This document shows positions 271-17,210 of a DNA stretch of 64,000 bases, piece after piece; the stretch's first letter is position 1; every line of letters starts with the position of its first letter. The stretch is from Nitrospira sp. Its GTDB lineage: Bacteria > Nitrospirota > Nitrospiria > Nitrospirales > Nitrospiraceae. Location: assembly GCA_024998625.1 (NCBI GenBank), contig JACOEL010000019.1, positions 37,156-101,155 of the forward strand, written 5' to 3'. The notes beneath the pieces are model-generated. The model was not told the DNA's origin. It saw nothing but the letters and a program-made list of their open reading frames with translations, and ran no database searches. The position numbers were made by a program, and so were the translations under genes.

Positions 271-1971
271 TTACCTTGTGGTAAACGGAGGCAGTTCAGG
301 AATTTCTCCGAGTAAATAACGTCCCAGCAACCGGGCCTGCACTTCCAGCACTCGGCGGTAACTGATCTGATATCCGAACACCGGGTGGGTAATCTCCTGG
401 CCCATGCGCCGCTCGTAGGTTTCGATCAAGCGACGGCGGCCCTCCGGCGTGAGCGTGACTGATCCCATGCGTTCAAACCAATCGCTCTGCTGAATCTCGC
501 CGTTGTTGATAGCGGTCAGGACAGCGGAATCGGCAATGAGCGGACGGAATTCTTCCATCATGTCGAGTGCCAAGGCCGGTCGCCCGTAGCGCGGTTGGTG
601 ATAAAAACCCAAATAAGGATCGAGCCCCACGCTCTGCAGGGTGACGGTCCACTCGCGCGCCAGCATGGAATAGAGCAGCGACAGCATGGCATTGACTGGG
701 TCACGTGGCGGGCGGCGATTGCGCCCGTCGAAATCGAAACGTGCCCCAGGCTCGGCCTCTTTCAACATGCCAGAGAATTCTGAAAAATACCGGCGTGCCG
801 CTGTGCCTTCCACGCCCAGGAGTGACTCCAGGGATTCAGTGACACCGGCGTGGGTCTGATCATTTTTCAGATCCTGAATGACCGTGTCCGGCGCCGCCCG
901 GTGATTACGCCGCAGCAACGTACGACAGTTGGCAATCTTAGCCTGCACGAATCGCCTCGCGAGTTGCAGACAGCGTTCACGATCTGCCGCAACTGCGTAT
1001 TGCCTCCGTCGAAGCTCCACATGTTTGTGCAGCAAGCCGGTCGTCATGCCGTAGAACCAACCGCCGCTGGAACAGTACACCAGCGGAATATTGCGCTTGC
1101 AGAGTTCCTGTACCACCTGCGTGCTCACCTGCACCGCGCCGTACAGCACAACTTGCGACGTTTCGACCAGCCTGGCTTCGCCGATCACGTCATCGTGATC
1201 TTTGACCTTCAAGCACTCCCCGTCTTTGCCCAGCTTCGCGCCGGGTGTCTGGATATAGAGCGGCAAGGCATCGTCGTTGGTGGGGATGAGCTTTCGAAGC
1301 ACCGGCATGTCGTCATTGTGCGGTTGCCGTAACCAGCCAACCTCGTCCGGCAGACAGAGGCCTACGAGCGAGCAACGCGGGCACTTGGGGCTGTCTACCA
1401 AGGGCGGCGGCGCAATCGTTGCCTGCGTCATTGTCCGCATGCCGTCGAGGAGTTCCTGCGTCCGCGTAACCAACTCATCGTCGAACGGCACTTCCACTCG
1501 CTCGCGCGAGCCGACAAAGTAGAGCACTCCGCGCTCGCAGGTGAAGCCTTGTTCACGAAGCAACAACCCCTGCACACAGAGTTGTACCCTTTCCGGTTCC
1601 CACGCGCCTTGCGCCGTATGCGGCCGCTTGCCGCGCTTGTAGTCCACTGGAACGACCGCCTGGCCCTCGCCTTCGACGAGGTCGATCTTGGCCGTCACAC
1701 CGAGGCCCTCCGAAGACAACCAGACGGAGCGTTGATGGATCGTGGTTTCTCCCGACTCCTGACTCTCAGTCTGTCTCGATTTCCGGACCGGTGCCTGGTC
1801 CACGCGCCGGTGGTGAAATCGCCCCTCGGTGGTTTCCGCGTTGTCGGCGAACTCCCCGTCTACCCACTCGAAGTAGGCCAGACGTGGGCAGTAGGCACAC
1901 TCGTTGACCATCCGGGCGGGGAGCAACGGGATGTCGCCCCCCGTGGATGGCCCCTGTGATTCAGTGTCCAT
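271..1971 (-). CDS. cas4-cas1: Cas4-Cas1 fusion protein, CRISPR adaptation
   Basis: A 566-residue fusion. The N-terminal Cas4 half (about 1-215) processes prespacer ends next to the PAM. It shows the iron-sulfur cysteines C25, C28 and C197, C200, C206 (CPRCSLVGLC) and a RecB-type nuclease motif with D97, D110 and K112 (VDYKRGK). The Cas1 integrase starts near residue 236. Its metal ligands fit the usual Glu-His-Asp set: E388 (GVEGTAARRYF), H458 (GFYHQPRYGRPALALD) and D470. Cas4-Cas1 fusions are typical of type I-G (I-U) loci, as in Geobacter, which agrees with the effector genes upstream. The gene starts next to a divergent small antitoxin gene; the 116-base gap probably carries promoters for both. 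All key residues are present. Confidence 0.95.
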   Translation of the reverse strand: MDTESQGPSTGGDIPLLPARMVNECAYCPRLAYFEWVDGEFADNAETTEGRFHHRRVDQAPVRKSRQTESQESGETTIHQRSVWLSSEGLGVTAKIDLVEGEGQAVVPVDYKRGKRPHTAQGAWEPERVQLCVQGLLLREQGFTCERGVLYFVGSRERVEVPFDDELVTRTQELLDGMRTMTQATIAPPPLVDSPKCPRCSLVGLCLPDEVGWLRQPHNDDMPVLRKLIPTNDDALPLYIQTPGAKLGKDGECLKVKDHDDVIGEARLVETSQVVLYGAVQVSTQVVQELCKRNIPLVYCSSGGWFYGMTTGLLHKHVELRRRQYAVAADRERCLQLARRFVQAKIANCRTLLRRNHRAAPDTVIQDLKNDQTHAGVTESLESLLGVEGTAARRYFSEFSGMLKEAEPGARFDFDGRNRRPPRDPVNAMLSLLYSMLAREWTVTLQSVGLDPYLGFYHQPRYGRPALALDMMEEFRPLIADSAVLTAINNGEIQQSDWFERMGSVTLTPEGRRRLIETYERRMGQEITHPVFGYQISYRRVLEVQARLLGRYLLGEIPELPPFTTR

Positions 1972-2087
1972 AACACCCCTATCGGTCAGAGGTCTGGAAA
2001 TATTCAGTTGTCAAAGAACCGTCAACGCCTGAAGAGATCAGACGTTCTGTTATAAGGAATGCCATTGTCAGAATTCGGGAGGCCCAC

Positions 2088-2291
2088 ATGGAATATCCGA
2101 TCGTCATCGAACCAGACCTCGAGGCCGGCGGTTATGTCGTGTCCTGTCCGACCTTGAAAGGATGCATTTCACAAGGCGAGACCGAAGAGGAAGCCTTGGA
2201 GAACATCAAGGATGCTATCAAAACCTACCTCGAAAGCATCGAGGATCTGAAGCGCCTCAAAAAGTTACGCACTGTCGAAGTCAGCGTATGA
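2088..2291 (+). CDS. hicB: HicB-family antitoxin, short form
   Basis: A 67-residue protein with the HicB partial RNase H-like fold. It begins MEYPIVIEPD, followed by GGYVVSCPTLKGCISQGET and EEALENIKDAIKTYL, the standard HicB pattern. In the family, HicB neutralises the mRNA interferase HicA and can repress its own operon. It has no C-terminal DNA-binding domain. A start codon overlaps its stop (ATGA at 2288), where HicA would be expected, but the following frame closes after 22 codons, so the toxin is missing or wrecked. The gene is plus strand, opposite to all cas genes around it. Confidence 0.8.
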   Translation: MEYPIVIEPDLEAGGYVVSCPTLKGCISQGETEEEALENIKDAIKTYLESIEDLKRLKKLRTVEVSV

Positions 2292-2356
2292 CGAAGCTGC
2301 CGCAGATTCTGGAAGCCGCAGAGATCCCGGCAGACCGGTTCAAAGAGCTGCTCTGA
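2288..2356 (+). pseudogene. 22-codon reading frame overlapping hicB, possible hicA remnant
   Basis: The frame begins MTKLPQILEAAEIPADRF and stops at 2356. MTKLP is how many HicA toxins begin, and the ATGA overlap with hicB is how hicBA pairs are often joined. The rest does not look like HicA and lacks its catalytic histidine. It may be the scar of a deletion that removed the toxin, or an unrelated fragment. Confidence 0.35.
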
Positions 2357-2414
2357 AAATTTTCCCCTACGCCTTATAGGGTCCGTCCGCACACTCTCAT
2401 GGCCGCTGCGCGCC

Positions 2415-2480
2415 ATGTATTCCCGGGCGGGCATCCCAGGGTACTGGATCGTCAATCCCGCCGATTGCTGTCTGGGGGTG
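2415..2480 (+). pseudogene. Fragment of an Uma2-family (DUF820) nuclease-fold gene
   Basis: Plus-strand translation from 2415 gives MYSRAGIPGYWIVNPADC. It closely resembles the conserved YARAGIPEYWIVD segment of Uma2-like PD-(D/E)XK proteins. Only this segment is visible, and no long frame runs through it. I read it as debris of a deleted gene between hicB and the helicase gene. Confidence 0.45.
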
Positions 2481-2553
2481 ACTCAACGCATACTCATCGC
2501 TCATCACAGTTAGAACTTGCTCCCTCTACGAGTCATACGTAACTCCGGCCGTT

Positions 2554-5500
2554 CTACGCTTGCGGCGGCTCGCGCCTTTGGGAAGAGCAAGCGGCCAGCT
2601 GTTTGTTGATAGACCGTTCCAGTTTCTCGGTTTCCCGTTCTGGGTCGATCCACCAGTCCGTTGACCATACCCGATGCAGCGTCCAGCCCAGACCTTCCAG
2701 AACGAATTGACGTAATCGATCCCGGTCACGTGCAGTGGGCAACGAGTGGTATGTCGCCCCGTCGCACTCAACGCCCAGAAGATATTTTCCCTGCTCGTGC
2801 GGATGAACGACGGCCATGTCGATCCGGTAGCCGGAACAGCCGACCTGCGGATGCACGGTCCAGCCTTTGCTACGCAAGGCGCGGATAATCTCGGTTTCCA
2901 GCGGACTCTCAGGCTCCAGACCTGTCGGTAGAACCTGCTCTACGATGGCGCGTGGACCTTTGATAGCGAATTCGAGGTAATTTTTCAGATCGGTGACGCC
3001 TGCCGAGCGGGTTTTCGATAGATCGATGTCGTCGGGCCGGATGGAACTGAAGATCGTCACGCCGGTCCGTGCCCTGGTGATTGCGACGTTCAACCGGCGC
3101 TGTCCGCCTTCCTGGTTTATCGGGCCGAAATTCATGGCCATTTTCCCTGCAGCGTCTTTCCCATAAGTAATCGAGAACAGGATGAGATCGCGCTCGTCAC
3201 CCTGCACGTTCTCGAGGTTCTTGATGAACAGCCGTTCCGATCCATGCTCCGCGATGCGCTGCTCAATCTCGGGATGCTTGCGCAATTCCTCGTCCAGCAG
3301 CGTTTCGATGAGTCGCTGCTGAGTCTGGTTGAACGTCACCACCCCCATCGTCAGTTTTCGCCGCGACTCATCAGAAAAGTGCGCGACGATTTCTTTCACG
3401 ATGGCGTCGGCTTCGGCCCGGTTCGTACGGGCGGCGCCCCGATCGTAAATACCGCCCACCAGATTCAGTTTCACCGCCAGGTCATTCGTAACGGGGGACG
3501 GAAAAGTGATCAATCTGGAATCATAGTAGCGGTGGTTCGAAAACGTGATCAGGCTTTCGTGGCGACTGCGATAGTGCCATTCCAGCCGTATGGCCGGGAG
3601 TCCGGCCCCCAGGCATTCATCCAGTATGCTTTCCAGATCCTGGACCGGTGCGTCTTCTTCATTACCCAGAGCGGTATTTTCGGCATCGTCTGCCCGATTG
3701 AAAAAGTTGGTGGGAGGAAGTTGCTTGGGATCGCCCACCACGATGAGTTGCTTGCCGCGCGCGATGGCGCCGACCGCGTCCCAGACAGGAATCTGGGACG
3801 CTTCGTCGAACACCACCACGTCGAAGTTCGAATGCGCAGCGTCCAGGTATTGCGCGACCGAGAGCGGCGACATGAGCAGGCACGGTTTGAGCCTTGGAAG
3901 CAAGTTGGGAATGCGGTGGACCAGTTGCCGCACCGGCAGGTGCGCTCGCTGCTTTGCCAGCTCGCGCAACACAAGGGCCATTTCCTGGTCGGGTCTTTGC
4001 CCCGCCTGCTGCCGTGGCACCTTTCCCGCCAGGACTGCCACGATATATTGCTCGGTAAGTTTCTGGAACCGTTCGTCGGCCTGCCGGAACTCGAGGATTT
4101 TCCGGTCGTGATCGGCGCTCGCGAAATTGCGCAGGGCCGGTTCGCGGTCAATCACGGCCTTTAACCACCAGCTCTGGTAAGAATACTCGGCATAGGCATA
4201 GAGATCCTGGGAAGATGTCCGGTCCTCCTCCAGAGCCCGAACGACAGCTTCCAGTCCAGCAGACAGAGCCTGTCCACGCAACTGCCTCCACCGGCACCAC
4301 AACCTCAGCCAGCGACGGAACGAGATCCATCCGCTCATAATTGCTTTTATCCGGCTGGGCAGCCCCGCGACGGTAGGTCCTTCTGCCAACGCCTGCCCGG
4401 CACATGAAAGTTCAGCGACGGTTGCGATCTGATTCTTGAAGGCATGCCAGGCATCGCGGAATGCAGTCAGGCTACCGCTGACCGTGCCTGTAGGAAGAAG
4501 CAGGTTACGCTGTTCGCTGACTAGCGTGCGCAACTGCTTGGTCATAGCGACCATGGTAGTCTGGTCGTCACCATTCGCGAACCGTCCAATCGCTTCCTCG
4601 AAGCGGCTTCCCCATTGCTCGTACCGCTGCACTGCCGCCCAGTCTGTGTCCGTGCCTTTGTATTCGGAGTCCAGTAGTTCGAGGCATTGGATCTCGGAAG
4701 ACTTCATTGCCTGATCTTCAATATTCAACCCGCGCAGGGCTTCAAGCAGGGCTGGCATTTCTTCCGCTGCCGGTCGCTTTTGATCGATGGTATAGAGCGC
4801 CAGGCAACCGGCTACAGCTCGCTGTGCGAACCATCGCTGTGGCCACCAGGTGGCGGACGCCACCCTCCAGTCCTTCGTCAACTGCTCGCCGTTGGCCGCG
4901 GAGATCTCCGGCTTGAATTTGCCAGCCAACTGACGCCAATGAGCCTGCTGACGTTCTCCATGTTCGCGAATGATCTGCATGCGGGCACGAACGGCTGTGT
5001 TCCCACCGTGGACGGCGAATCCTTTGGGTACTTGCGGTGCCTGCAGCAGAACGTCGATCAGTCCGTCGACGGCGTCCAGCAAGGTCGCCGAAGGCGCATC
5101 CAGCTTGATGCCCAGTACCGGAGCAATGGCAACGGCGACTGCCTGAAGTCGGTCAGTCGCTGCCTCCAGGGTTGCTGCCTCCTTGAGGAGGCGTTCTTCC
5201 CAAGCGTTTGTCCACTCGGTGTGCCACACCAGGGAAAGAGGGTGATTGCCGAGGCTGCCCAGCTCGCTCACGACTGACTGCATGGTCCGCACCGTGTCGC
5301 GGATTCGGTCGAGCGCTTCCTCGTCATGCGTGTCGGGATCCGCCCACGGCATGCGGGCCGGCCTCCACTCGCGATACCGGATTGCGGTGTCAGTTGCCCC
5401 TCGCACGGTCAATCCGTTGCGATACCGCTTGTGTAGCGCCCGCACGAAATCATTCAGGTCGGCGCGCAGCCTACCGACGCGTTCCGCCTCGCGCTTCCAG

Positions 5501-7845
5501 CCAGATGCCGTCTGACCTTGCGCGGCATCCATTGCCGCCCGCAACTGGGCAAGGACCTCGATCTTGCGCGCCTTGGCCGAATGTAGCTCGAGGCAGAACG
5601 GGCCCAGACCGATGTTCTTCAGACGGCGCTCCACGACATCGAGGGCTGCCATCTTCTCCGATACGAACAACACCGTCTTGCCATGCCCTAGAAAGTGCGC
5701 GATCAGATTGGTAATGGTCTGCGACTTCCCCGTGCCGGGTGGTCCCTCCAGCGCGAAGTCGTGCCCCGCACCGGCGCGGCTAAGCGCATTCAGTTGTGAG
5801 GAGTCGGCGAGCAGCGGCGCAAGCAGGCTCTCCGGCGCGTGCCGTTCGTCGAGGTCTTCACGCTGGGATAGATCTTCACGGATTCCGATCGATTCCCGCA
5901 GCCGCTCGATGAGGTGATCAACCACCCGGTTCTGCTTGAGCTGCGCGGTGCGGTCCTGCAGATCCTTCCACATCAGGTACTTCGTGAAGGAGAAGATGCC
6001 GAGGTAGACGTCTTCCTTCACTTCCCATCGAGGAATTTCCTTCACCGCGAGGCGGAAGATCTGCCAGATTTTCTTCACATCCACGCCGTTTCCATCTGTC
6101 GGCAGAGGATCGAGCCCCCTCAACGTCAACTGGAAATTCTCACGCAGTAACTGGACCAGGGTCGGATTGACAATGGTTTCGTCGTCGTGCCGCTTAATGG
6201 TATAGCCCGTTCGCACCGACTGGCGCGTGAGCGTGACCGGCACCAGCAGGATCGGGGCGAGATGAGTTTTCTCCGCCCGCTCGTCCTCGGCCCAGCGCAG
6301 AAATCCCAGCGCCAGGTAAAGCGTGTTGGCGCCGCCTTCCTCCAATCCGAGCCGTGCAGCGCTGTAGATCTCATAGAGTCGTGAATCGAGGACCTTGGGT
6401 TCGACGGCGGCGAGCAGTTCCTTCTGCTGCATCGCTTGCTTCGCGGCGGCCTCGACGGGGTCCTCTCCGGTGCGCTTTGCGGCGACGGCAGCGACACGCG
6501 GATCGTCGCCCTGCATGATCTGCAGCAGAGGACGGAACTTCCATTCCTGTCCGTCGGCGAGGGCGTCTTCCAGGTGCGCCGGGTCCGGCACCCGCAACGG
6601 CAGCATGATCTTCGTCGGTTTGAAATTGATCAGGCGGTTGCGCAGCGTAAGATCGAGCAGTTTCGATTTCCAGCGGGCGAGCCGCCCTTCCGGCGTTTCC
6701 GGACGCGCGTTCTCATCGAGCAGGAACGCCTCGCCGTCCAAAGGCGGCAGCGCCGGCGACGGCTCGATTCCTCGATCATCAACCTGTCCCACCATCTTTT
6801 CCTCTGGCGCCGCCGCCTCGACTTTGCTCGGCAGCGGCCTCACCTGTTCGATGCGTGCGCGCTTGACATCGATTGCAAACAGGAATTCACCTTCCTCCTG
6901 CAGGTGCTCCAGCCCGAGCTCGCAGGCCGCGCGCAACGAAGGCCTTGGCTGGTGGGTCAACACTGTGGTTTCGAACGCAATCAGCTCGCCACTGGCCACC
7001 CGCTTGCGCACCGCCTGACCATCGTCGAACGTCGGCGTCGGAAACGTCGTGTTGATCAGCCAACAGCCGACCCACGCGTGCCCCTTCTTGATCAGAACGA
7101 CCGGGTTGAGGCCGGCCTGTTCGAGGCAGGAAGCAAGCAGCATGGCGAGGTCCATGCAGGTCGCGATGCCGCCCGAGAACACCCGGTCCGGCGTGCGGAT
7201 CTTCTGGCCGTCATTGGTGAACGAGGCCGGCGGCTCGCTGTAATGCAGACCAGAGGCTCCGATCGCGCTATAGAGCGCTGAGATCTGCGCCCACACGTCC
7301 TCGCGGTTCTTCGACTGGTAGCCGTTCATTGAACGACCGCCGCCAGCCTTGGCCAGCAGCTCACCGGCCTGGAAGATCATGCGGTCGACGGCTGGATTGT
7401 TCGGAAGGGAAAACGCTGCCAGTAATTCAGGCAAGGCACGGGCACCGGCCCATTGATCGTAGGCCAGCACGTCCACCGGGTGATCGGTGCGGGCAAGCTC
7501 CACTCCCGCCGAACTGACCCGGATGATCACACGGCCGCGCTCAGCCTCGTTCAGCTCCGCAAGATACTGATGCCGGAACTTCAGGTCCAGCGAATCGACA
7601 CGCCGCGTTTCCTTCGAGTCCAGACGCTCGAACTGCAGACGCATCGCATCTGCGAATTCGGGCTCGCAGCACACAGAGATTTCGACATCGCGCAGCGGCT
7701 CATCGGCAGCATTGGTGATACTCAGGCTGCGGAGGAGAGGGACGTTGTTCTGATAGGAGGCGTAGCTGACCGTTGGGTCAGCGAAGATCTGGATGACGGC
7801 CGGGGCCTGAGTAGGCTCAGCTCTGTCGGTTGTCCCGTCGTTCAT
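2554..7845 (-). CDS. Giant superfamily 1 helicase with transglutaminase-like and Vsr-like nuclease domains (DUF4011/DUF3320 type)
   Basis: A 1763-residue multidomain protein. Near residue 230 is a transglutaminase-like core (ATCMDLAMLLASCLEQAG, then GHAWVGCW) with candidate catalytic Cys and His. A DUF4011-like stretch follows (LTLRNRLINF). The SF1 helicase core has Walker A near residue 700 (LEGPPGTGKSQTITNL) and Walker B near 1348 (VVVFDEASQIP), then VVGDPKQLPP and GDERDLILFS. The last ~100 residues look like a Vsr/DUF559 PD-(D/E)XK nuclease (YRIDMAVVHP, LLGVECDGATYHS, WSTDWW). The family occurs in bacterial defence islands, so a nucleic-acid-cleaving defence role is an inference. It starts 35 bases after csb2 on the same strand, with a good ribosome site (GGGAAGG), which places it inside the CRISPR operon. 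It is not a known part of type I-G. Confidence 0.85.
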   Translation of the reverse strand: MNDGTTDRAEPTQAPAVIQIFADPTVSYASYQNNVPLLRSLSITNAADEPLRDVEISVCCEPEFADAMRLQFERLDSKETRRVDSLDLKFRHQYLAELNEAERGRVIIRVSSAGVELARTDHPVDVLAYDQWAGARALPELLAAFSLPNNPAVDRMIFQAGELLAKAGGGRSMNGYQSKNREDVWAQISALYSAIGASGLHYSEPPASFTNDGQKIRTPDRVFSGGIATCMDLAMLLASCLEQAGLNPVVLIKKGHAWVGCWLINTTFPTPTFDDGQAVRKRVASGELIAFETTVLTHQPRPSLRAACELGLEHLQEEGEFLFAIDVKRARIEQVRPLPSKVEAAAPEEKMVGQVDDRGIEPSPALPPLDGEAFLLDENARPETPEGRLARWKSKLLDLTLRNRLINFKPTKIMLPLRVPDPAHLEDALADGQEWKFRPLLQIMQGDDPRVAAVAAKRTGEDPVEAAAKQAMQQKELLAAVEPKVLDSRLYEIYSAARLGLEEGGANTLYLALGFLRWAEDERAEKTHLAPILLVPVTLTRQSVRTGYTIKRHDDETIVNPTLVQLLRENFQLTLRGLDPLPTDGNGVDVKKIWQIFRLAVKEIPRWEVKEDVYLGIFSFTKYLMWKDLQDRTAQLKQNRVVDHLIERLRESIGIREDLSQREDLDERHAPESLLAPLLADSSQLNALSRAGAGHDFALEGPPGTGKSQTITNLIAHFLGHGKTVLFVSEKMAALDVVERRLKNIGLGPFCLELHSAKARKIEVLAQLRAAMDAAQGQTASGWKREAERVGRLRADLNDFVRALHKRYRNGLTVRGATDTAIRYREWRPARMPWADPDTHDEEALDRIRDTVRTMQSVVSELGSLGNHPLSLVWHTEWTNAWEERLLKEAATLEAATDRLQAVAVAIAPVLGIKLDAPSATLLDAVDGLIDVLLQAPQVPKGFAVHGGNTAVRARMQIIREHGERQQAHWRQLAGKFKPEISAANGEQLTKDWRVASATWWPQRWFAQRAVAGCLALYTIDQKRPAAEEMPALLEALRGLNIEDQAMKSSEIQCLELLDSEYKGTDTDWAAVQRYEQWGSRFEEAIGRFANGDDQTTMVAMTKQLRTLVSEQRNLLLPTGTVSGSLTAFRDAWHAFKNQIATVAELSCAGQALAEGPTVAGLPSRIKAIMSGWISFRRWLRLWCRWRQLRGQALSAGLEAVVRALEEDRTSSQDLYAYAEYSYQSWWLKAVIDREPALRNFASADHDRKILEFRQADERFQKLTEQYIVAVLAGKVPRQQAGQRPDQEMALVLRELAKQRAHLPVRQLVHRIPNLLPRLKPCLLMSPLSVAQYLDAAHSNFDVVVFDEASQIPVWDAVGAIARGKQLIVVGDPKQLPPTNFFNRADDAENTALGNEEDAPVQDLESILDECLGAGLPAIRLEWHYRSRHESLITFSNHRYYDSRLITFPSPVTNDLAVKLNLVGGIYDRGAARTNRAEADAIVKEIVAHFSDESRRKLTMGVVTFNQTQQRLIETLLDEELRKHPEIEQRIAEHGSERLFIKNLENVQGDERDLILFSITYGKDAAGKMAMNFGPINQEGGQRRLNVAITRARTGVTIFSSIRPDDIDLSKTRSAGVTDLKNYLEFAIKGPRAIVEQVLPTGLEPESPLETEIIRALRSKGWTVHPQVGCSGYRIDMAVVHPHEQGKYLLGVECDGATYHSLPTARDRDRLRQFVLEGLGWTLHRVWSTDWWIDPERETEKLERSINKQLAACSSQRREPPQA

Positions 7846-7880
7846 ATGCCTTCCCTGCGGTTTTGTTCTATTTCAAGTCT

Positions 7881-9485
7881 TTATGTGCCATCTGCTACCG
7901 GAACGAACTGACCGAGGCCGAAGTGGGAAGAATGGCCCAACGCAATAGGGCCACGGACAGGGTTAGGGAAGATCAGTCGAAACGACCCGGCCAGGCGACG
8001 GCCTCCGTCGTCTGTCGCTTTGCGACGAAAACGTTGGAATTGAATAGGGCGCCACTGTCCGCGAATCCTGAACACGTGGTTCTCATCCCATAGCGGCTCA
8101 ACAATCACCGCCGATGTTCCCTCTATTACGAGGTCATGCCGTAAGGAAGCCAGCTGCGCATGAAGATCATCCTGAAGGAACGTGGCACGAGCCTCAGGTG
8201 AGCCCAGGTCAACCCGATCCCGTCCCCTTGTTTTGGCGTAGCGGGTAGCAAGATAGGGTGTCGATGATACCCATATCCTCGACGTTGGCAACGGACCTGG
8301 GACATACTCGTTAGATGTCCCCATCCCCAACAGCAGGAGGCGAAGCAAATGACGCTCTTCACCCTCCCAGCCCATCTTTAATTCTCTAAGGCGGTCGAGT
8401 GCACGCCGCTCATCTGGACCAAAACCTGCCGCAGCATAAACCGTAAGATGGTCCAGACGGCCGTCCCCATCTTCATCAGTCGGTAAATAATAAGCATGGC
8501 GGTGGTTGATTAACCGTTGCCCTTGCTGGTCTTTTCCAGACAAGACATCGGACCGCCCTCGAATGCCATTCTGCTCTGTCAATCGACCATGAATGCCCAT
8601 CAACGTACGTCTTGCAGCCTCCGCCACAGACAGGGTGTCAGTAACCAGCGGCAGCACGATTGAGTCGAGGGAGTAGCGGATAATTTGAATACGTTGGCGA
8701 TGAGCTGTTGGTCTCAGCCGTGCCTTGGGTTCGATCTTGAAGCAATCACGGGGACGGGTGTAGGGCACCCAGCGCGAACCAGGCGGGTCAGACCATCGTT
8801 CTTTGTGCAATTGAAGGGTCTCCATGCAGAGATTCCACGCAGGGTCATAGATGGTGGAGCGCTCCTCTACGGTTTGCTTGTTTTTCCCGCGCCCAGCCGT
8901 TTCCCTCGTGACGGTGACGACGGAGTCATCGGCAAAGGCGCTCGTGGGATCAGGACAAAGCAATCTGACAATCTCGTGTTTGGCGGGCGCGTCGCCTTGA
9001 AGCCGACGACACATCTGCCCTTTGGTATTGCCTGTTGTATCTTCAAGATCGGCCTCACACCACGACTCGGACCTTCCAAGTGTATTGAGATTACGAAGGA
9101 GGTTAGTCAGCACACTGCGTTGCTCATCATCGAGTATTGCATTCGGCCATTGGACGCGAAGCGCCGCATCACGGGGGATAGCAACGAAGGTATCAAAGAC
9201 GAGTGTACGGTCTTCTGGTCCTTTCTTGAACCATGGCATGAAATGGCGAGTATGGCCTGTTGAAGCAGGAGGCAGAAGAAATTCAGGCGGCTGGGCTAGA
9301 GAACGAAGGATCGGCGCGACCCGCTGCTCGGGCAGTTCGTGTAACGTGCGCTTCCACACAGCCACAAGCGCGCGCAGAAGCCGCCAGGGTGAAGGAGGCC
9401 ATTCAACCGCGCCTTCATTGACGTGTCGTCCCCACGGTGTCGCGTGATAGCGACCTGCAAGAAACTTAATAGATATTGTGATCAT
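7881..9485 (-). CDS. csb2: Csb2, type I-G Cas5-Cas6 fusion
   Basis: A 534-residue protein of the GSU0054 family. It opens MITISIKFLAGRYHATPWG, followed by EWPPSPWRLLRALVAVW, the typical Csb2 start. In type I-G, Csb2 combines the Cas5 role (holding the crRNA 5' handle) with a Cas6-like domain that processes the pre-crRNA. A His-containing segment (INHRHAYYLPTDEDGDGRLDHLTVYA) fits the Cas6-like part, but I cannot assign the catalytic residue. Its start codon overlaps the csb1 stop (ATGA at 9482-9485), so translation is coupled. Confidence 0.92.
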   Translation of the reverse strand: MITISIKFLAGRYHATPWGRHVNEGAVEWPPSPWRLLRALVAVWKRTLHELPEQRVAPILRSLAQPPEFLLPPASTGHTRHFMPWFKKGPEDRTLVFDTFVAIPRDAALRVQWPNAILDDEQRSVLTNLLRNLNTLGRSESWCEADLEDTTGNTKGQMCRRLQGDAPAKHEIVRLLCPDPTSAFADDSVVTVTRETAGRGKNKQTVEERSTIYDPAWNLCMETLQLHKERWSDPPGSRWVPYTRPRDCFKIEPKARLRPTAHRQRIQIIRYSLDSIVLPLVTDTLSVAEAARRTLMGIHGRLTEQNGIRGRSDVLSGKDQQGQRLINHRHAYYLPTDEDGDGRLDHLTVYAAAGFGPDERRALDRLRELKMGWEGEERHLLRLLLLGMGTSNEYVPGPLPTSRIWVSSTPYLATRYAKTRGRDRVDLGSPEARATFLQDDLHAQLASLRHDLVIEGTSAVIVEPLWDENHVFRIRGQWRPIQFQRFRRKATDDGGRRLAGSFRLIFPNPVRGPIALGHSSHFGLGQFVPVADGT

Positions 9486-10507
9486 TCGTTCTCGCCTTCA
9501 TCGTCTGCCGTATTTTCATCGACAGATTCGTCTTCGCCCTGGTCCTTCTTAGCCCTGGATTTTTTGTTCTCAGGCTTCCATTCGACGTTCGTGACGGAGG
9601 GGGCGGCAAACAGAGGCTTGCACGTCGTGATCAGCCTCTTACATTCATTAAGAAGAGCCTTCTCGTCGGCAATCACAAACTCCTTTGGCCGTGTGACTGT
9701 CAAATCACCATCCACTTCTAGGTCACATGCCGTGCGCAAACGCAGCCCAGTGGAGAGAAAACGGCGGACCTTAAAAAGCGAAAGGGCGATCAGAAGATTG
9801 GTCGCATCAGCGCTCAGACCGTGGCCGCGGAGCAACGCTAGGTCAAGGTTGAAGTATGCCTTGATCTCCTTGGCAACAAATTCAGTGCGATGAAAAGGAA
9901 CGTTTCCTTCTCCCCCTTTCAGGTCCGGTTGGACAATATTATTTTTCACACCTCCGCTCTCAGCAACTAGGACATCGCGTGCTTCAACAAACCCAGAGAG
10001 GGCTCTTGTCACGCGCAGACGTCCTCCGATTTCCTCCAAAAAGCAGCCATGAATAAGGCTGTTCGGATCGTACTTAAACAGACTCGAATGAAACCTTTGC
10101 CAATCAACGCGACCATCTTTTTCGTACCTGATTTCATTCGCAAATCTGTCATGAAAATTTCTCGCATACTCTGAGTTGATGCGATGCGCTTCCAACAGCG
10201 AGTTACTCAGTTGTCCATTGTTAGCGGCAATAATCTTGAGATATGGGAGTCCCTGCAGGTCTGAGATGAGGTCTTGCACGGCAGTCTCCCAACAAGCCAG
10301 CTCCATCCGGTTGGCGACGGACTGGACGGATTCGACCAAAAGCATCTCAGTCCCATCTGGAAGTGTGTAGCGCGCTGGGCCGAGATCGGCAAAGCCTGTC
10401 GGCTGGAAACGATGCCCCTGAATGGGCTTGAGCCTTGCTTCCATGAGCAAGCGCGGAGCATCTTGAAGCGTTTCATAGTCGATCTTCCATTCTGTCGCCA
10501 TCACCAT
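9482..10507 (-). CDS. csb1: Csb1, type I-G Cas7 backbone subunit
   Basis: A 341-residue protein of the GSU0053 (Csb1) family, the Cas7-like RAMP that coats the crRNA spacer in type I-G Cascade. The family's conserved N-terminus is visible: GHRFQPTGFADLG, then TEMLLVESVQSVANRMELACW. A charged Lys/Glu-rich tail ends the protein. AAGGAGG lies just before the ATG at 10507; a second ATG two codons on is possible. It lies 16 bases after csx17 and overlaps csb2 by four bases. Confidence 0.93.
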   Translation of the reverse strand: MVMATEWKIDYETLQDAPRLLMEARLKPIQGHRFQPTGFADLGPARYTLPDGTEMLLVESVQSVANRMELACWETAVQDLISDLQGLPYLKIIAANNGQLSNSLLEAHRINSEYARNFHDRFANEIRYEKDGRVDWQRFHSSLFKYDPNSLIHGCFLEEIGGRLRVTRALSGFVEARDVLVAESGGVKNNIVQPDLKGGEGNVPFHRTEFVAKEIKAYFNLDLALLRGHGLSADATNLLIALSLFKVRRFLSTGLRLRTACDLEVDGDLTVTRPKEFVIADEKALLNECKRLITTCKPLFAAPSVTNVEWKPENKKSRAKKDQGEDESVDENTADDEGENE

Positions 10508-10523
10508 GTCCCTCCTTCAACAG

Positions 10524-13034
10524 TCATTCGTACACTGGTATTAATCTCTTCACCTTGGTCTCATCACCATAAACGATGAGCCGAACCAATTGATTCACGG
10601 CCTCGTCAGTAATCGGGATGAGGAGCGCCGCTGCCAGCCGCCGCAAGTCCAGCCCAGCAATACCCATACGATCCAATTCTCGCCAATCATCGTCACGAAC
10701 ACGATGACCACGAATCGGCTTCGGCATCGGGGCGAGGCCAGAAGCACGGAGACGTCGTATGGCAATGATGCACGCTTCGCCTAGCCGTCCCGCGCGAAGC
10801 AAAGGCAGGATGGATGATTCGGGGCGGATGATAACCCCTCCTGTTTCGTTGCGTCGCAGTAAACGAGCGAACAGGGTCCCATCAGTCTGTTGCTCCACGA
10901 AAAGCGGTCGAGGCAGAAAGAGCAGTTTCAATAATGCGTAGGCCCGCACCACTAACGCGTCATCTGTTCTTTGACGAACTTGGTTCCGATGGCCTCGGTC
11001 CTCCATCAACATCAGTCCCCACAGCAAATCGCTGATACGTTGGTGATCGAGTTCGCCGGCGAGGAAAGCCTCAACTATGTCCAACGATACCGCGAGGCGG
11101 GAAGTTAGAGGGAGTTGCGTACACCCAGATCTTTGACCATCCATCATCCGCCGTTGGAGAACATCAGCCAGATTGATTGCTAAGTCGCCGGCGTTCCAGA
11201 CGACAGCACGGTCCCTTTCGGCCCAAGCGCGGCAGCGCTTCTTCCAATCTACGGATTCGAGGTTAGCCCGGAACGGGCCGATTTTCACTTCTGGGTCATG
11301 AATGGAAACCAGTGCACACGCAGCGGCGAACTCTGCCGAACCGTCATCGGCTGCGCGCATCCATTCTGAAGATAATTGCGAGATCGGATTTACAGACTTT
11401 CTTTTAAACTGTCCTTGCGTAACGGCAAGCTCCCGCTCAGCCTGTCCAAGAGCGATGATAATTTCTTGAAAGAGTCGAGGCCCGCCGTACTTGCAGAACT
11501 CAAAAATAGCCGAGTCAATGCCGTTGAGCGTCAAAAGAATACGCTTCGGAGCTTCCTCCTTGTCACGACCCCGAGCACACTTCCACCGAAAATCACCCAT
11601 CCAGCGGTCAATCTGACGAAGAAGATGGACTTCAGAGCGTCCGATAACCTCGAACCGCCCTAGTGGGGCCGCAAAAAAGGCCTTACCACTACGTTTCAGG
11701 AATCCAACTCGATTGAATCTCACGATCCCGCGATCGACACCAAGCTCAGCCACGGCACGGGCAAAATCCGTTCCGTCTCGCGCAGCCCTGCCCGACACTT
11801 GTGCTCGTCCTTCGCCAAAGAGCTGGCGAAGCTCGCCGGTGCTGGTCGGACGTGCCCAGAGGGGAAGCCACACTTCGCCGCGAGACTCGGCTTCATCTTT
11901 GGTTGCCGCTGAATCGAACCCTGAAGCCACGGAATGAACCGTGAAGGGAAATGAAGCGCGAGAATTGCTGACATCGCCAAAGCGTCGAACAACAGCCCCA
12001 GCCAGCAATAGAGCCCCTTCCATCATTAAGACGAAATCCCATATATTGTCCGTCGAATCACCCTCCATGCCTTGCGTCGCATTTGGCCCACCTGCACGGC
12101 CTGGCGCGAACTGGCCCACACTGCCCTTATCAAATGTGGCCGGAGTTGCAAACAAGGACTGTTTCAACAAAACAACTGACTTGTTATCTATTGCATTTTT
12201 CTTATGAAGACCTAGCGCGACGATTCTCTGCATGAAGTTTTGCGTGAAATCAAGCCGCCCATCATTCCCTCCTGTGCCAAGTAAAGGCGCAAAACCTTGT
12301 CCGTCTTGCCGTAACACCATCGCCGCATCCATCCAGGTGACAACTTCATTGGGCAGCTCTCGCCGATATCGTCGAATAAGGCGTACCTTGTCTTCGTCCT
12401 TCGGTTTATCCCCAACGTTTTCTTCTTTGATGATCTTATGGACAATCTGGATCGTCTTCGCGTAAAGATCGACCCGTAGCGTTCGACTCTTGCCCAATTC
12501 CTCAACTGCCTTCTTATTATCTTTCTTAAAGAAACCAGAGCCTCCTGCCCAGGGCGCCACAATGGGCGTTGGCTTGTATTCTTCTAGGAAGAATTTCGTT
12601 AATGCATTGCGCTTGGCTTCTTCACTGGCTGCCCCTTCGAATAGCTTTGGTGCCCGCAGCCAGAACACGTCGTTCCTCCACCAACCTCTGGCATCTTTGT
12701 CCTTCTGTTCGCTGAGCAACCGTAGGATGCCCAGTGCCTTGAGATAGGCCATCAACGGCTCCGGTGTACAGCCTTTCAGCTCCATGTCATGAGCGGCATC
12801 GCCATTTCCATACTCAGCTTGAGGTTCTTTTACACTCACACCTTGCAGAGGTTCGCCGTACTCACCTGACGGTGCTGCACCTAACACTTGCGCTATGTCC
12901 TGCATTTCCTCGATGGCGAGCAGGATTTTTTCCAATGGCAATTGTGCCCAGCGACGAAGCTGTTCGCGGCGCGAGCCCTCGAAGCTGGTCACGCGCCAGT
13001 CGAATTCTGGGGTGTGTGGTTTATTTTCCTCCAT
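10524..13034 (-). CDS. csx17: Csx17, type I-G large subunit (Cas8g)
   Basis: An 836-residue protein matching Csx17, the Cas8-like large subunit of type I-G effectors, which recognises the PAM and recruits Cas3. The family landmark ELKGCTPEPLMAYLKALGIL is present near residue 86, and a GTGGNDGRLDFTQNFMQR segment also fits. The start overlaps the end of the nucleotidyltransferase gene by 14 bases, so the two are co-translated. Length and position (between cas3 and csb1) are normal for the subtype apart from that extra gene. Confidence 0.92.
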   Translation of the reverse strand: MEENKPHTPEFDWRVTSFEGSRREQLRRWAQLPLEKILLAIEEMQDIAQVLGAAPSGEYGEPLQGVSVKEPQAEYGNGDAAHDMELKGCTPEPLMAYLKALGILRLLSEQKDKDARGWWRNDVFWLRAPKLFEGAASEEAKRNALTKFFLEEYKPTPIVAPWAGGSGFFKKDNKKAVEELGKSRTLRVDLYAKTIQIVHKIIKEENVGDKPKDEDKVRLIRRYRRELPNEVVTWMDAAMVLRQDGQGFAPLLGTGGNDGRLDFTQNFMQRIVALGLHKKNAIDNKSVVLLKQSLFATPATFDKGSVGQFAPGRAGGPNATQGMEGDSTDNIWDFVLMMEGALLLAGAVVRRFGDVSNSRASFPFTVHSVASGFDSAATKDEAESRGEVWLPLWARPTSTGELRQLFGEGRAQVSGRAARDGTDFARAVAELGVDRGIVRFNRVGFLKRSGKAFFAAPLGRFEVIGRSEVHLLRQIDRWMGDFRWKCARGRDKEEAPKRILLTLNGIDSAIFEFCKYGGPRLFQEIIIALGQAERELAVTQGQFKRKSVNPISQLSSEWMRAADDGSAEFAAACALVSIHDPEVKIGPFRANLESVDWKKRCRAWAERDRAVVWNAGDLAINLADVLQRRMMDGQRSGCTQLPLTSRLAVSLDIVEAFLAGELDHQRISDLLWGLMLMEDRGHRNQVRQRTDDALVVRAYALLKLLFLPRPLFVEQQTDGTLFARLLRRNETGGVIIRPESSILPLLRAGRLGEACIIAIRRLRASGLAPMPKPIRGHRVRDDDWRELDRMGIAGLDLRRLAAALLIPITDEAVNQLVRLIVYGDETKVKRLIPVYE

Positions 13035-13530
13035 CGTCTTCCAACCTCATACGCAAGTGTTCGATATCGATCCTGTCCTGCTCCCGTCCTGCCACTTCTT
13101 TCATCTTAATCAGCGTGGGAATGCTGACGAACCGAACATCGATGGCCCCATACAGCGGCTTAATCAATGCGTTGGCATACTCCTCCTCAAACGGAAACGG
13201 CTCATGTACGAATATGTCAATCGATGTTTCTCGGTGTTGATCGCTCCAGAGCTGCAATACCTGCATGTTCTTGTCGCGTATCCACCCTTCACGCGTGACT
13301 GGATCGGCAAACTGTTCGGCCGTAACCGGCGCCAGCGGTTTATAGCCAAGTGTCCCCAGCGCGGTAAAAACCCGTTTGACATTGTCCGGTACCAACTGAA
13401 TGACAAAGTCGGCATCCTTGGTAAAGCGCAGAAAACCATGGGCGTTCACCGCGAGTCCTCCGGCAATCAGATAACGTACACCGGCCTCGTTGAGTGCACG
13501 GACAATGGCTTCGAAGCTGGCTAGCTTCAC
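13021..13530 (-). CDS. AbiEii-like nucleotidyltransferase embedded in the CRISPR operon
   Basis: A 169-residue minimal nucleotidyltransferase. The fold signature is clear: IAGGLAVNAHGF at 22-33, then TKDADFVI with metal ligands D39 and D41, and a third Asp at D105 (TSIDIFVHE). The tail REQDRIDIEHLR is also typical. Relatives include toxins that modify tRNA or nucleotides, usually paired with an antitoxin; none is visible here. The start is GTG and overlaps the cas3 TGA stop (GTGA), and the 3' end overlaps csx17. Such tight packing implies that cas3, this gene and csx17 are translated together. A role in CRISPR immunity or as an operon-guarding toxin is inference only. Confidence 0.85.
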   Translation of the reverse strand: MKLASFEAIVRALNEAGVRYLIAGGLAVNAHGFLRFTKDADFVIQLVPDNVKRVFTALGTLGYKPLAPVTAEQFADPVTREGWIRDKNMQVLQLWSDQHRETSIDIFVHEPFPFEEEYANALIKPLYGAIDVRFVSIPTLIKMKEVAGREQDRIDIEHLRMRLEDDGGK

Positions 13531-16115
13531 GATGCTACCTCCCGTTTTCCGTGCGGAGATACTGGGTCATGCTGTTTCGCCACTGCTCTCTGTTCCGCAT
13601 CTCGACTGGCCCTCATATCCGCTGCCCGAAGGATGGCTTCAAGATAGGCCAGCCGGAAGGGGCCAAGCGTGTCACGTAAACCGATCATGCGCTCAGCCCA
13701 TGAAGGTAACCCGTGGAACGGCTCCTCCTCGCACAACCCCAACTCCATCGGCTCCAGTGAGAGCCTAACAGCTGGCGCAATTACCTCAATACCATTTCCA
13801 CCTAGGTTTGCAGCAGGAAGCTCATCATCGTCCCATATTCCTCTAGCAAAACGGCGATTGCTATCTGGACGCTTTTCATTTGGTAGCGAACGGATAGACA
13901 GGCGCACCTTCCCATGATGTGAGGCGACGAGATAGGCAACAATGTCACGTAGTTCGCTGGGAATCTTGTCATTCCGTGGATCGAGGACTGACAGCGCAGA
14001 GGCAAGTTCATGGCGAAAGTGCCGACGGTCGTACTTCTTCCATTGTCCTGGCGCCTTTGCCCAAAATTTTTCAGGATCTGGTGAACCATCGGGCAATGCC
14101 TTTCTGAAGACTTCATGCGCCTTTCCTCTATCATGCCAACGCGCCGCAAGACGAAGTGGTTTTCCTTCGTTCAGTTGTTCGGCTAGCGCGTCCAAGATGT
14201 CTTCCACTTCCTGGCAAAGTTCATCCGTATGCTTTGCAATGGTTTGCCAGACACCGATGTGAGAGAGCGGGTCATTGTCCGTGGCATCTTGGGCATCGCC
14301 GCTTGCCTCTACCAGCGACGGAATCGGAACAACTATGGTATTGCTATCCGGATGCCAACCCCTTTCCGTCGAATATCCTCTGGCCTTGGCCTGAATCAGA
14401 AAGACGTGTCCTGGTGCGACTTTTCCTGCATCGACCTTTTCCCATTTTTTATCAAGGAAGTTCCATCGCCAAACCTGACCCATGTGTTTTCTTACGAAGT
14501 CTTGGAATTCTTCGATCGGGACGGGACACAATTCATCACGCCGAGGTGCAGGCTCAGGTTCTTTATCGTCCAACTCATTAGGCGTCTTGTCATAGTCCCG
14601 CCAAAAGACGCGCACATCACTTTTCTCGACATCGCGAATGAAACGATCGATGTCAATGTCGTTTCCCGCAAGATCCGGCGTGGTGTCAAAGAGATCGATC
14701 AGATCCTTGCGGCGTATCACATGCGTGTGTTCAAAGCGTAACGGCAATGATTGATCGCGTAGAGTTCTCAACCCCACGTCAGACAGTTCTTTCTCGGACA
14801 GTTTTTCTAACTGTTCGGCTGCGGTCTTCAGATCCATCAGGTCATAGGGGGCAACCACCTTTTCTGCGCCCGAACCCTTCGTCGGCATGGTAATCCAGTG
14901 GACCGCGGCACGATCGTTTTCTGCCCCACGTCTATTACATCTGCCGAATCGCTGGACCAGCGATGCCCATGGGGCCAACTCCGTAAACAAAGTCGTCGCA
15001 CTGACATCCACGCCGGCCTCAATCACCTGCGTGCTGACGACGATCGTTCCCGGCTCGTCGGACTTGATCTCCGCAAGTGCTTTGTCCACCTGCTTCTTGC
15101 GGTCTCCTGGCCTGAAACGCGAGTGCAGCAGTACGATACGGGGACTGGATTCTTTGCCAGCATCCTTGTACAAATCTTCGAGCTTTCCAACCAACGCGCA
15201 GGCCCGCTTCACCGTATTGACGATGACGATCGTCCGCGTACCGGGTTTATGTATGTGGGCCTTGTGAATCTCCTGGGCGAGTCCTGACTCATCGCCCATG
15301 ACTGCCTTTGTCTTCACCAGCGGCTTCCTGGCCCGCCAACGATCTTCCAAAGCTTGGCGAGCCTTCTGATTCTGCCCGGAATTGTTCATCTCTTGCTCAA
15401 AATCGAATGCTATCTGCTGCGCCTCATCGAGAAACGGCACAAAGTCCACGGTCTTGAGCCACTCTCTTCGCAGCGTCGCGGACATCCATACACTTCGACA
15501 ACCATGGCCGTTCTTGGCTCTATCCGAATCCTTGTCTGGGAGCAAACGCCGGAACGCTTCAAGCTGTGTAGTGGTTGCCAGTCCCGTCCCCATCAACTGA
15601 ATCTCGTCAAACACCCATAGGCAATCCGTGTTGAGCAACCCAAATTTAACCGGCCAGCGGGACCGAGTAGCGGCATAGCCACGATTGAGCGCGCGTGAGA
15701 GCAACATATCCTGAGTCCCAATAATGATCTGATCGCACTCGGGATAAATGTCCCAATCTTCTTCGTCTTCTCCACCCATGAGAATATGGATATTAAGCGG
15801 ATGTGTCATTTCTTTGGGATAGTGTTTCTCCAGTTCGGCGATCCATTTATTTGCTTCACTGGCTGTCTGTTCAACTAACACTCGCATGGGCAAGCAGTAC
15901 ACCAACCGCCTAGGGGTTGCCTTCCTAACTTTCACTTCACCAAACCGCCTCCTCCACAGCCACCCCAGCACTGCCATCGCGGTCTTCCCCATCCCCGTCG
16001 GCACATCCACAAGCTCAGGTAGCTCCGGTTCACAGGCGAAGCGAATCTGGAATGGGTAGGGTTCATTCCCCGTGGCGCGTGCGAACCAGTTTGCAAACTG
16101 ATGGATTTCACTCAT
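13527..16115 (-). CDS. cas3: Cas3 helicase-nuclease, type I-G arrangement with C-terminal HD domain
   Basis: An 862-residue protein that unwinds and degrades target DNA after Cascade binding. The SF2 helicase comes first: Walker A VPTGMGKTAMAV (K44), DEIQ box at 170-173, motif III MSATLRREW and motif VI FGRCNRRG. The HD nuclease is C-terminal (ARWHDRGKAHEVF, RHELASAL, YLVASHHGKVRLS), the reverse of most Cas3 proteins and characteristic of type I-U/I-G. An AAGGA sequence precedes the ATG. The stop overlaps the GTG of the nucleotidyltransferase. It is the first recognised cas gene of the operon; two small same-strand genes lie 43 bases upstream. Confidence 0.95.
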   Translation of the reverse strand: MSEIHQFANWFARATGNEPYPFQIRFACEPELPELVDVPTGMGKTAMAVLGWLWRRRFGEVKVRKATPRRLVYCLPMRVLVEQTASEANKWIAELEKHYPKEMTHPLNIHILMGGEDEEDWDIYPECDQIIIGTQDMLLSRALNRGYAATRSRWPVKFGLLNTDCLWVFDEIQLMGTGLATTTQLEAFRRLLPDKDSDRAKNGHGCRSVWMSATLRREWLKTVDFVPFLDEAQQIAFDFEQEMNNSGQNQKARQALEDRWRARKPLVKTKAVMGDESGLAQEIHKAHIHKPGTRTIVIVNTVKRACALVGKLEDLYKDAGKESSPRIVLLHSRFRPGDRKKQVDKALAEIKSDEPGTIVVSTQVIEAGVDVSATTLFTELAPWASLVQRFGRCNRRGAENDRAAVHWITMPTKGSGAEKVVAPYDLMDLKTAAEQLEKLSEKELSDVGLRTLRDQSLPLRFEHTHVIRRKDLIDLFDTTPDLAGNDIDIDRFIRDVEKSDVRVFWRDYDKTPNELDDKEPEPAPRRDELCPVPIEEFQDFVRKHMGQVWRWNFLDKKWEKVDAGKVAPGHVFLIQAKARGYSTERGWHPDSNTIVVPIPSLVEASGDAQDATDNDPLSHIGVWQTIAKHTDELCQEVEDILDALAEQLNEGKPLRLAARWHDRGKAHEVFRKALPDGSPDPEKFWAKAPGQWKKYDRRHFRHELASALSVLDPRNDKIPSELRDIVAYLVASHHGKVRLSIRSLPNEKRPDSNRRFARGIWDDDELPAANLGGNGIEVIAPAVRLSLEPMELGLCEEEPFHGLPSWAERMIGLRDTLGPFRLAYLEAILRAADMRASRDAEQRAVAKQHDPVSPHGKREVAS

Positions 16116-16392: not shown

Positions 16393-16458
16393 GAACGTGC
16401 GCCTCCTTTCAGTTGCCAACTCTGCCCGCACTCGCCGTTACTGCCCTGACTTCGACTC

Positions 16459-16728
16459 TTATCCATATGGCGGATCTGCCCTGCCAACGACATAGTGCGA
16501 ACCATCAGGATCGACCTGCCGTTCTGGCCGCAGTACCAGTACGGCGATGCAATGGTCAGCTTCGCGATGCCGGATGAATTCTTCTTCCGTCAAAGCCAGG
16601 TGCACATCTCGATCGCACTCGGGGCAGTGTCGAACTCCTTCCTCTGCGGTCGGCTGGAGACGGTCCCACCGTCGAGGGCACTTAAACGAAAACCGGCAAC
16701 TGATCCGAGCTTCTTCATTCCAACTCAT
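16459..16728 (-). CDS. Small Cys-rich, zinc-ribbon-like protein
   Basis: An 89-residue protein. The start at 16728 is supported by GGGAG before the ATG. It has CRFSFKCPRRWDRL and then VRHCPECDRDVHL, two cysteine pairs that could hold zinc. The CPxxWDxLxPT...VRxCxxC pattern is one I have seen in uncharacterised bacterial proteins. No enzyme motif is visible. It shares strand with the exported peptide and cas3, so co-transcription is possible. Confidence 0.6.
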   Translation of the reverse strand: MSWNEEARISCRFSFKCPRRWDRLQPTAEEGVRHCPECDRDVHLALTEEEFIRHREADHCIAVLVLRPERQVDPDGSHYVVGRADPPYG

Positions 16729-17210
16729 CGTGTTCTCCCAACGCCGCCGCACTGTAGCAAGGATAGGGATAGTCGTCATCGGAGAATATCGACAAAACGA
16801 ACTAGGTCTATACCTAGGGCCTGCCTGCTCATCCCACCTGAACCGCGCACCCTGCACCGTGTTCCGTCGGGTTCGGGCCTCGTTCGAAATTATGCATGAA
16901 TGCTCCTGACTCGCACCGTGACCCGAACAACGCGTCACGACCTTCCCCCTCGACTATCCGCCATACCCCATCAGCTCTTCATCGTGGCACCCCGACCCTA
17001 CCACTGCGGTGTGACATCCGGGGTCACAGTTTGGGGTGATGTTGGTTTTTTTCTCACGACAGGATGTTCCCCTCCCGCCGCGCGTTCAAATACCAGCATT
17101 TACCCCCCCCCACTCCGTTGACAGATTTCTTCGTAACGATTACCGTACCGCCATCTTTTTGATCATCGAACGTTTTATACTCACCCATCTCGCCCGCCAA
17201 GGAGGTACGT
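16729..17210. other. Intergenic region between the CRISPR-side genes and the caspase gene
   Basis: 482 bases without a convincing gene; short frames here lack ribosome sites and family resemblance. It should hold divergent promoters. Two small inverted repeats are present: CTAGGT/ACCTAG at 16802-16817, and TGTGACATCCGGGGTCACA at 17010-17028, followed by a T-run. A run of nine C lies near 17104. TATACT at 17176-17181 could be a -10 box for the caspase gene, but I find no matching -35. Confidence 0.5.

Follow-up and report, generated by a model that had tools for sequence, protein, structure and literature searches.

A gene of the ProA anti-phage family next to csb2 in a type I-G CRISPR locus of Nitrospira

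The window, that is, the whole stretch of 64,000 nucleotides of Nitrospira sp. DNA analyzed here, is part of a 101-kb contig in a genome of 4.4 Mb and 37 contigs, and among named organisms Nitrospira has the closest relatives of its Csb2 and ProA proteins. The window contains a type I-G CRISPR locus (Table 1), whose genes are read from the minus strand in the order cas3g, a nucleotidyltransferase (NTase) gene, csx17, csb1, csb2, proA, cas4-cas1 (cas4-1) and cas2. Apart from the two overlaps of the NTase gene, csx17 and csb1 are 16 bases apart, csb1 and csb2 overlap by 4 bases, and proA is followed after 582 bases by cas4-1. The genes cas3g, csx17, csb1, csb2 and cas4-cas1 were all present and open, as expected of a type I-G locus, and a cas2-like ORF running off the window and, beyond it, at least 27 repeats complete it. 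The gene order, strand and coordinates given in an earlier note on this DNA, together with the 35-base spacing behind csb2 and a separation of 5.9 kb between csb2 and cas4-1 (5909 nt), were all confirmed. Absent from that note were the NTase gene, about 84 additional residues at the start of Csx17 and a HicB-like gene on the plus strand, which breaks the same-strand run between proA and cas4-1.

Table 1. Features of the type I-G locus; positions are those of the window unless preceded by L002
Feature	Position	Strand	Evidence or remark
cas3g (Cas3 helicase/HD nuclease, type I-G)	13527-16115	-	NCBIfam TIGR02621, 781 bits (cut-off 400); PADLOC Cas3g
NTase gene (MenT-like predicted fold)	13021-13530	-	shares 4 bases with cas3 and 14 with csx17
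csx17 (Cas8g large subunit)	10524-13034	-	TIGR04113, 709 bits (cut-off 150), residues 85-820
Csx17 N-terminal 84 residues (NTase partner, in frame)	12783-13034	-	
csb1 (Cas7g)	9482-10507	-	TIGR02570, 91 bits (cut-off 38)
csb2 (Cas5-Cas6 fusion)	7881-9485	-	TIGR02165, 180 bits (cut-off 45)
csb2-ProA linker, 35 nt	7846-7880	-	ribosome-binding-like GGGAAGG
proA, 1763 aa	2554-7845	-	NF058533 antiphage_ProA; PADLOC PDC-S37; Pfam
HicB-like antitoxin gene	2088-2291	+	PF15919, E 2.9e-12
cas4-cas1 fusion	271-1971	-	NCBIfam NF049935, 816 bits (cut-off 560)
cas2	1-267, continuing past window edge	-	by position and likeness; 96 aa at L002:12133-12423
CRISPR array	L002:9973-11922, beyond window		36-nt repeat in 27 or more copies

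Several further elements were seen around the locus. A caspase-domain protein (Peptidase_C14, E 2.3e-22) is encoded divergently at window 17211-18122 (+), 1.1 kb from the cas3 start. The stretch upstream of cas3 at window 16436-16822 is 80% identical to a cas3-upstream stretch of genome G042 (L112:4892-5281) and contains a small ORF with paired cysteines and without a Pfam match. Near the far end of the array there is a HipA-like gene (PF07804, E 6.8e-42; L002:6836-7897, +). Two identical 30-nt repeats were also found beyond the array, at L002:8742-8832. They look like a type I-E remnant.

The giant protein encoded behind csb2 was identified as the anti-phage protein ProA of NCBIfam (NF058533), with 2128.8 bits against a cut-off of 1500 over residues 27-1759, and was assigned by PADLOC to PDC-S37 with 1264 bits. 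An identity as Hhe (NF042953) was rejected, the score of 914.6 bits being below the cut-off of 2000. The reading frame is open over the 1763 codons, with no internal stop. DUF4011, AAA_11, AAA_12 and the Vsr-like MTES_1575 domain passed the Pfam cut-offs in this protein, and the order DUF4011, SF1 helicase, MTES_1575 nuclease was matched in all 18 ProA family members scanned. When the ProA family profile was compared with the PDB, the best matches were Upf1, SMUBP-2, Sen1 and Nam7, followed by Dna2, and the Walker A, Walker B and nuclease-region residues are present in the window's ProA. The putative anti-phage role of ProA is taken from the NCBIfam family name; a literature search revealed no report testing ProA among the matches listed.

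The helicase and the Vsr-like nuclease described in the earlier note were thus supported by Pfam, whereas its third domain, a transglutaminase-like one, is less sure. The label is applied because C230, H256 and D275 are invariant across 39 aligned ProA sequences and because weak profile matches were obtained in some of the 18 family members scanned, namely DUF553 in six (best E 0.0024) and Transglut_core in three (best E 0.0049), all of them in relatives and none in the window's ProA, which gave no transglutaminase profile match at E<=1. Residues 12-128 are predicted to form an Ig-like sandwich, as in transglutaminase barrels. In a fold search of the ProA N-terminus the listed matches covered this Ig-like domain and not the transglutaminase catalytic part, and the core of a putative transglutaminase is unproven.

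Since the genes overlap and the csb2-ProA linker has 35 nt, an effector operon from cas3 through proA is predicted, and proA is likely to be co-transcribed with the I-G effector genes. A linker like the window's, which holds the ribosome-binding-like motif, also precedes ProA in genomes G084 (as a scar), G129 and G134. No promoter-like site was detected within the 35-nt linker, which is a weak test; the promoter scan found 2 promoter-like sites where 6.6 were expected by chance, and the terminator scan 20 terminator-like sites where 17.1 were expected, so that both were uninformative. One of the two promoter-like sites, a 10/12 match in the orientation of proA, falls within csb2 (8291-8264), about 420 bases before proA, and may provide proA with a promoter of its own. 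The earlier note saw in the giant gene a possible second defence layer expressed together with the CRISPR system; of its two proposals this one has the better support, in view of the anti-phage-named family and GGGAAGG in the linker, although the site inside csb2 leaves room for separate expression. On the other side of proA, conservation extends about 50-70 bases upstream of cas4-1, the nucleotide matches ending near window 2019-2042 in loci without HicB at that position, and cas4-1 may be expressed apart from the effector genes.

The occurrence of ProA beside type I-G genes was determined by scanning genome contigs with the csb2 alignment. This confirmed 325 places, and the best 80 of them were examined. 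ProA was found in none of these 80 other I-G loci, 52 of which were informative: in 40 the sequence behind csb2 extended as far as a cas4-1 on the same strand, and in 12 more it covered 6 kb or more. In line with the earlier note, ProA is not a general component of type I-G. It did not behave as a core I-G accessory either, being represented at other loci by one scar and one probable scar. Among 175 genomes of the family, csb2 was found in 15 (E<=1e-3, some matches weak) and ProA in four (E<=1e-200), the window's genome included; the same four genomes were the only ProA carriers among 395 genomes of the phylum at that threshold, and csb2 stands beside ProA only in the window's. The other three (G134, G129 and G103, all Nitrospiraceae) carry ProA on contigs without a csb2 match, and within 19 kb around their ProA no match to the window's I-G proteins was obtained. 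The ProA genes of G129 and G103 occupy one flagellar-gene site, with a broken frame in G103, and that of G134 lies elsewhere between other genes (neighbours named by eye in each case). In sibling genomes such as G072 the flagellar site lacks ProA, and the same flanks are separated by 131 nt.

Plasmids contained ProA relatives (E<=1e-200) in four records, all below 60% identity, and neither csb2 (E<=1e-10) nor the NTase (E<=1e-15) was found there. A csb2 scan of viral contigs gave one pattern match and no relative. In metagenome protein data, the longest contigs of P0191 and P0244 both measured 9502 nt (chance mean 0.02) and those of P0105 and P0174 both measured 12452 nt (chance mean 0.18), the chance of equal longest contigs being gauged against shifted lengths. 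These two pairs may represent further intact csb2-ProA loci and are only hints.

The csb2-ProA join is not unique to the window's genome. In G084, which belongs to another Nitrospiraceae genus, a scar of 171 nt was 85% identical to window 7925-7755 and contained the last coding bases of a window-type csb2, the linker and the first ProA codons. The scar stands between a csb2 that is 23% identical to the window's and a cas4-1 that is up to 87% identical. The locus of G084 keeps relatives of cas3, csx17, csb1 and csb2 as well as cas4-1 and cas2, and most of proA has been lost. The scar indicates that a window-like csb2-ProA join once stood in G084, and the effector genes of this genome would have been replaced after the join formed. 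Recurrence beside I-G genes in other genomes, a point raised in the earlier note, was therefore observed as a scar in a second genus but not as a second intact csb2-ProA locus among the loci fetched.

A probable second trace was found in G129, where ProA is solitary: 31 columns before the linker matched the csb2 tail with a score of 30, which was reached in 0 of 2000 shuffles, and this csb2-like tail is embedded in sequence without an alignment to the sibling genomes. The same test, in which mononucleotide shuffles of the csb2 tail were compared with targets of 122-136 nt, gave a score of 16 (p 0.22) for G134 and of 13 (p 0.76) for G103, so that the latter, at the same flagellar site as G129, is without csb2-tail signal. 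The ProA gene of G129 probably came out of a csb2-ProA locus, although this is not proven. Beside the scar of G084 there is also a short NTase-like ORF without a Pfam match (L108:13196-13438), and a similar ORF fills the slot of L065.

Base composition and divergence were compared on the two sides of the csb2/cas4-1 boundary. GC3 was 0.72 for proA and 0.71 for cas4-1, against 0.54-0.57 for cas3, csx17, csb1 and csb2. In eight other Nitrospiraceae loci with both genes, cas4-1 was 72-90% identical to the window's (best segment) and csb2 23-76%; within Nitrospiraceae, the effector genes differ in divergence from cas4-1 and cas2. Other genes often stand at the boundary as well, and the description in the earlier note of an operon split by the giant gene was therefore overstated. 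A HicB-like gene occupies the interval from csb2 to cas4-1, or its edge, in five of nine Nitrospiraceae loci (the window, L022, L111, L114 and L117), in L117 inside a partial repeat of the cas4-1 start. Boundary genes elsewhere that were tested with Pfam comprised a MNT-HEPN pair (L111), an ERCC4/XPF-like gene (L037), a Fic gene (L043) and DUF5615 (L100); the boundary ORFs of L065 and L108 had no Pfam match. Some loci are without cargo: the csb2-cas4-1 gap was below 600 nt in 26 of 40 loci and at least 750 nt in the other 14. In the Thioalkalivibrio sulfidiphilus I-G locus, the legend of Figure 1 in PMC9638904 places five genes at the boundary, including two toxin-antitoxin systems and an xpf-like gene. 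Cargo can be accommodated at the csb2/cas4-1 boundary, frequently in the form of toxin-antitoxin-like genes, and ProA is a new kind of occupant, among those observed, of a known sort of slot.

A second HicB copy was seen beyond the array, in 244-nt direct repeats that are 87% identical (L002:8096-8339 and window 2062-2305). Between these repeats lie cas4-1, cas2 and the array, as would be expected had the adaptation part been transferred in one piece. An NCBIfam search of HicB gave no meaningful match.

The NTase encoded between cas3 and csx17 has 169 aa, and its predicted model (pLDDT 83) showed MenT1 as best PDB match (Foldseek E 1e-5, TM about 0.6). Residues D39, D41 and D105 were invariant in five of five sequences, in keeping with an NTase fold with a DxD...D pattern. 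The scores of NTase family profiles were below cut-off (DUF6036, 20.8 against 23.6, for the window's protein; AbiEii, 20.0 against 22.5, for the relative in L109), and an NCBIfam search of two NTases and two partner sequences gave no meaningful match. A sequence likeness of the partner to the MenT1 antitoxin was considered and rejected, the PDB matches having E 0.35 or worse.

Relatives of the NTase were found in 38 of 175 family genomes (E<=1e-20). In 11 of the 30 loci retrieved, the NTase is followed by a separate partner ORF of 67-88 aa (L150-L158, L163 and L164; the NTase match is partial in two of them, and two further loci are weak), and in two of the 30, the window and G011, the partner is the Csx17 N-terminus. 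The overlap between NTase and partner is 14 bases in both the free pair of G107 and the window. The fused partner was present in nine of 55 candidate proteins, the window's included, and all eight others passed the Csx17 cut-off. Outside close relatives, the arrangement cas3, NTase, extended Csx17 was seen in Dokdonella (L101) and, by eye, in L023. It is rare, since among the 80 I-G loci (best 80 of 325) the NTase was found in three and the partner in two. The window's Csx17 has an in-frame Met 4 residues ahead of the Csx17 motif. Ten other fused sequences were inspected, L023 being excluded for want of a motif match; none has a Met within 30 residues of the motif, but valines, which are possible GTG starts, stand in that interval in all ten. 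In unselected loci, 37 of 42 Csx17 frames were open for at most 51 residues before the motif. Partner and Csx17 are likely, though not proven, to be translated as one fused protein.

From their size, overlap and predicted fold, the NTase and its partner may be a toxin and its antitoxin. If so, the CRISPR effector itself would be the antitoxin, and a phage or mutation removing or blocking Csx17 would free the toxin. The whole would form a self-guarded unit, in which the NTase toxin is held by the Csx17-fused antitoxin and ProA, made from the same transcript, adds another defence at the level of DNA; we regard this combined reading as tentative and unlikely. No report of such an NTase-partner/Csx17 fusion was found among the matches listed in a literature search.

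Two further observations concern the NTase genes. Short cas3 5' fragments were seen around NTase-partner pairs in L153, L154, L155 and L116; they look like traces left where cassettes were exchanged repeatedly at the start of cas3. In many Nitrospiraceae there is also a second NTase family (35-39% identical; L162, L165-L177) with its own ORF of about 70 aa shortly downstream.

Taken together, ProA is probably carried by the I-G locus as cargo, a second defence complete in itself that is predicted to share a transcript with the effector genes and would unwind and cut invading DNA alone. For this reading we infer co-transcription, anti-phage activity of the window's ProA and independence from the Cas proteins. 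According to PMC9638904, Csb2 and Csx17 serve crRNA-guided targeting with Cas3 in type I-G; ProA would act on foreign DNA by itself through its helicase and Vsr-like nuclease. In its make-up the locus resembles a mosaic, with an effector cassette, a cargo slot and an adaptation module as its pieces. Since its composition is like that of the adaptation side, ProA would have been trapped behind csb2 during cassette exchange, and it would be kept because the operon expresses it. Against the cargo reading stand the promoter-like site inside csb2, the want of a second intact csb2-ProA locus among those fetched, and the little room that most I-G loci have at the boundary, as the 26 of 40 gaps below 600 nt attest. 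A functional accessory, which finishes DNA opened by Cas3 or makes fragments for Cas4-Cas1 capture, would agree with the common strand, the 35-nt linker and a join that has left its scar in G084 and probably another in G129. An XPF-like nuclease gene at the same boundary in L037 and in Thioalkalivibrio (PMC9638904) points the same way, and a functional partnership would also explain why the join persisted across genera. However, ProA was absent from all 80 I-G loci (best 80 of 325; 52 informative), its nearest relatives in G134, G129 and G103 are encoded without csb2 on the contig, and G084 lost most of proA, yet keeps its I-G gene set. The role in target destruction or spacer capture that the earlier note had offered as its other option is thus not supported, no hint of a part for ProA in interference or in spacer capture having been found, and we consider it quite unlikely.

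Cargo kept for its expression has also to be weighed against a chance landing of ProA behind csb2 without any operon advantage, a pairing that would be lost again as in G084. The single intact locus, the G084 scar, the solitary ProA genes elsewhere and the promoter-like site inside csb2 are all compatible with such an event, but a similar linker with start signals precedes three other ProA copies or scars (G084, G129 and G134) and the frame of 1763 codons has stayed open, and a mere chance landing seems unlikely to us. That the join is an error of assembly between unrelated contigs might be suspected in a draft genome of 37 contigs; it lies within one 101-kb contig, however, and the same join sequence recurs as the scar in G084, which makes this explanation extremely improbable.

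In this locus a gene from a family of innate anti-phage helicase-nucleases stands immediately after CRISPR effector genes, and the sequence scars allow the csb2-ProA join to be traced, made and broken, among related bacteria. The csb2/cas4-1 boundary is a place to look for new defence cargo. The anti-phage gene and the CRISPR type are each of a known kind; the unexpected part is the Csx17 fusion, which is the boldest lead. If the fused partner is an antitoxin, the fusion would amount to a guard made of protein, directed against the loss of CRISPR or against anti-CRISPRs.

The window's ProA shares helicase and nuclease parts with Hhe, a DUF4011 anti-phage protein, and differs in its setting from the ProA/PDC-S37 family, the window copy sitting behind csb2 of a CRISPR operon. 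Longer ProA relatives (about 1970-2000 aa) carry a DUF3320 tail, which the window's ProA lacks. In a 2013 HEPN survey (PMC3710099), giant transglutaminase/SF1 helicase/Vsr (MTES_1575) proteins were described and a modification-independent DNA defence was proposed for them; their core architecture is like that of the window's ProA, whereas the HEPN and wHTH domains described in the survey had no Pfam match in it. The Thioalkalivibrio sulfidiphilus I-G locus has a populated boundary too, but no giant helicase-nuclease is mentioned in the part of PMC9638904 that describes it. The predicted fold of the NTase is like that of MenT1 of the MenAT1 toxin-antitoxin pair (PDB 8an4, 8an5 and 8rr5), with about 21% identity, and the window differs from the MenT1 system in that the NTase partner is continuous with Csx17. 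As in the guard proposed here, the toxin of the CreTA guard of Cascade is checked by the intact effector in the account given in the review PMC12737573; CreTA, however, is an RNA pair, whereas in the window the NTase is a protein and its partner is joined to Cas8g.
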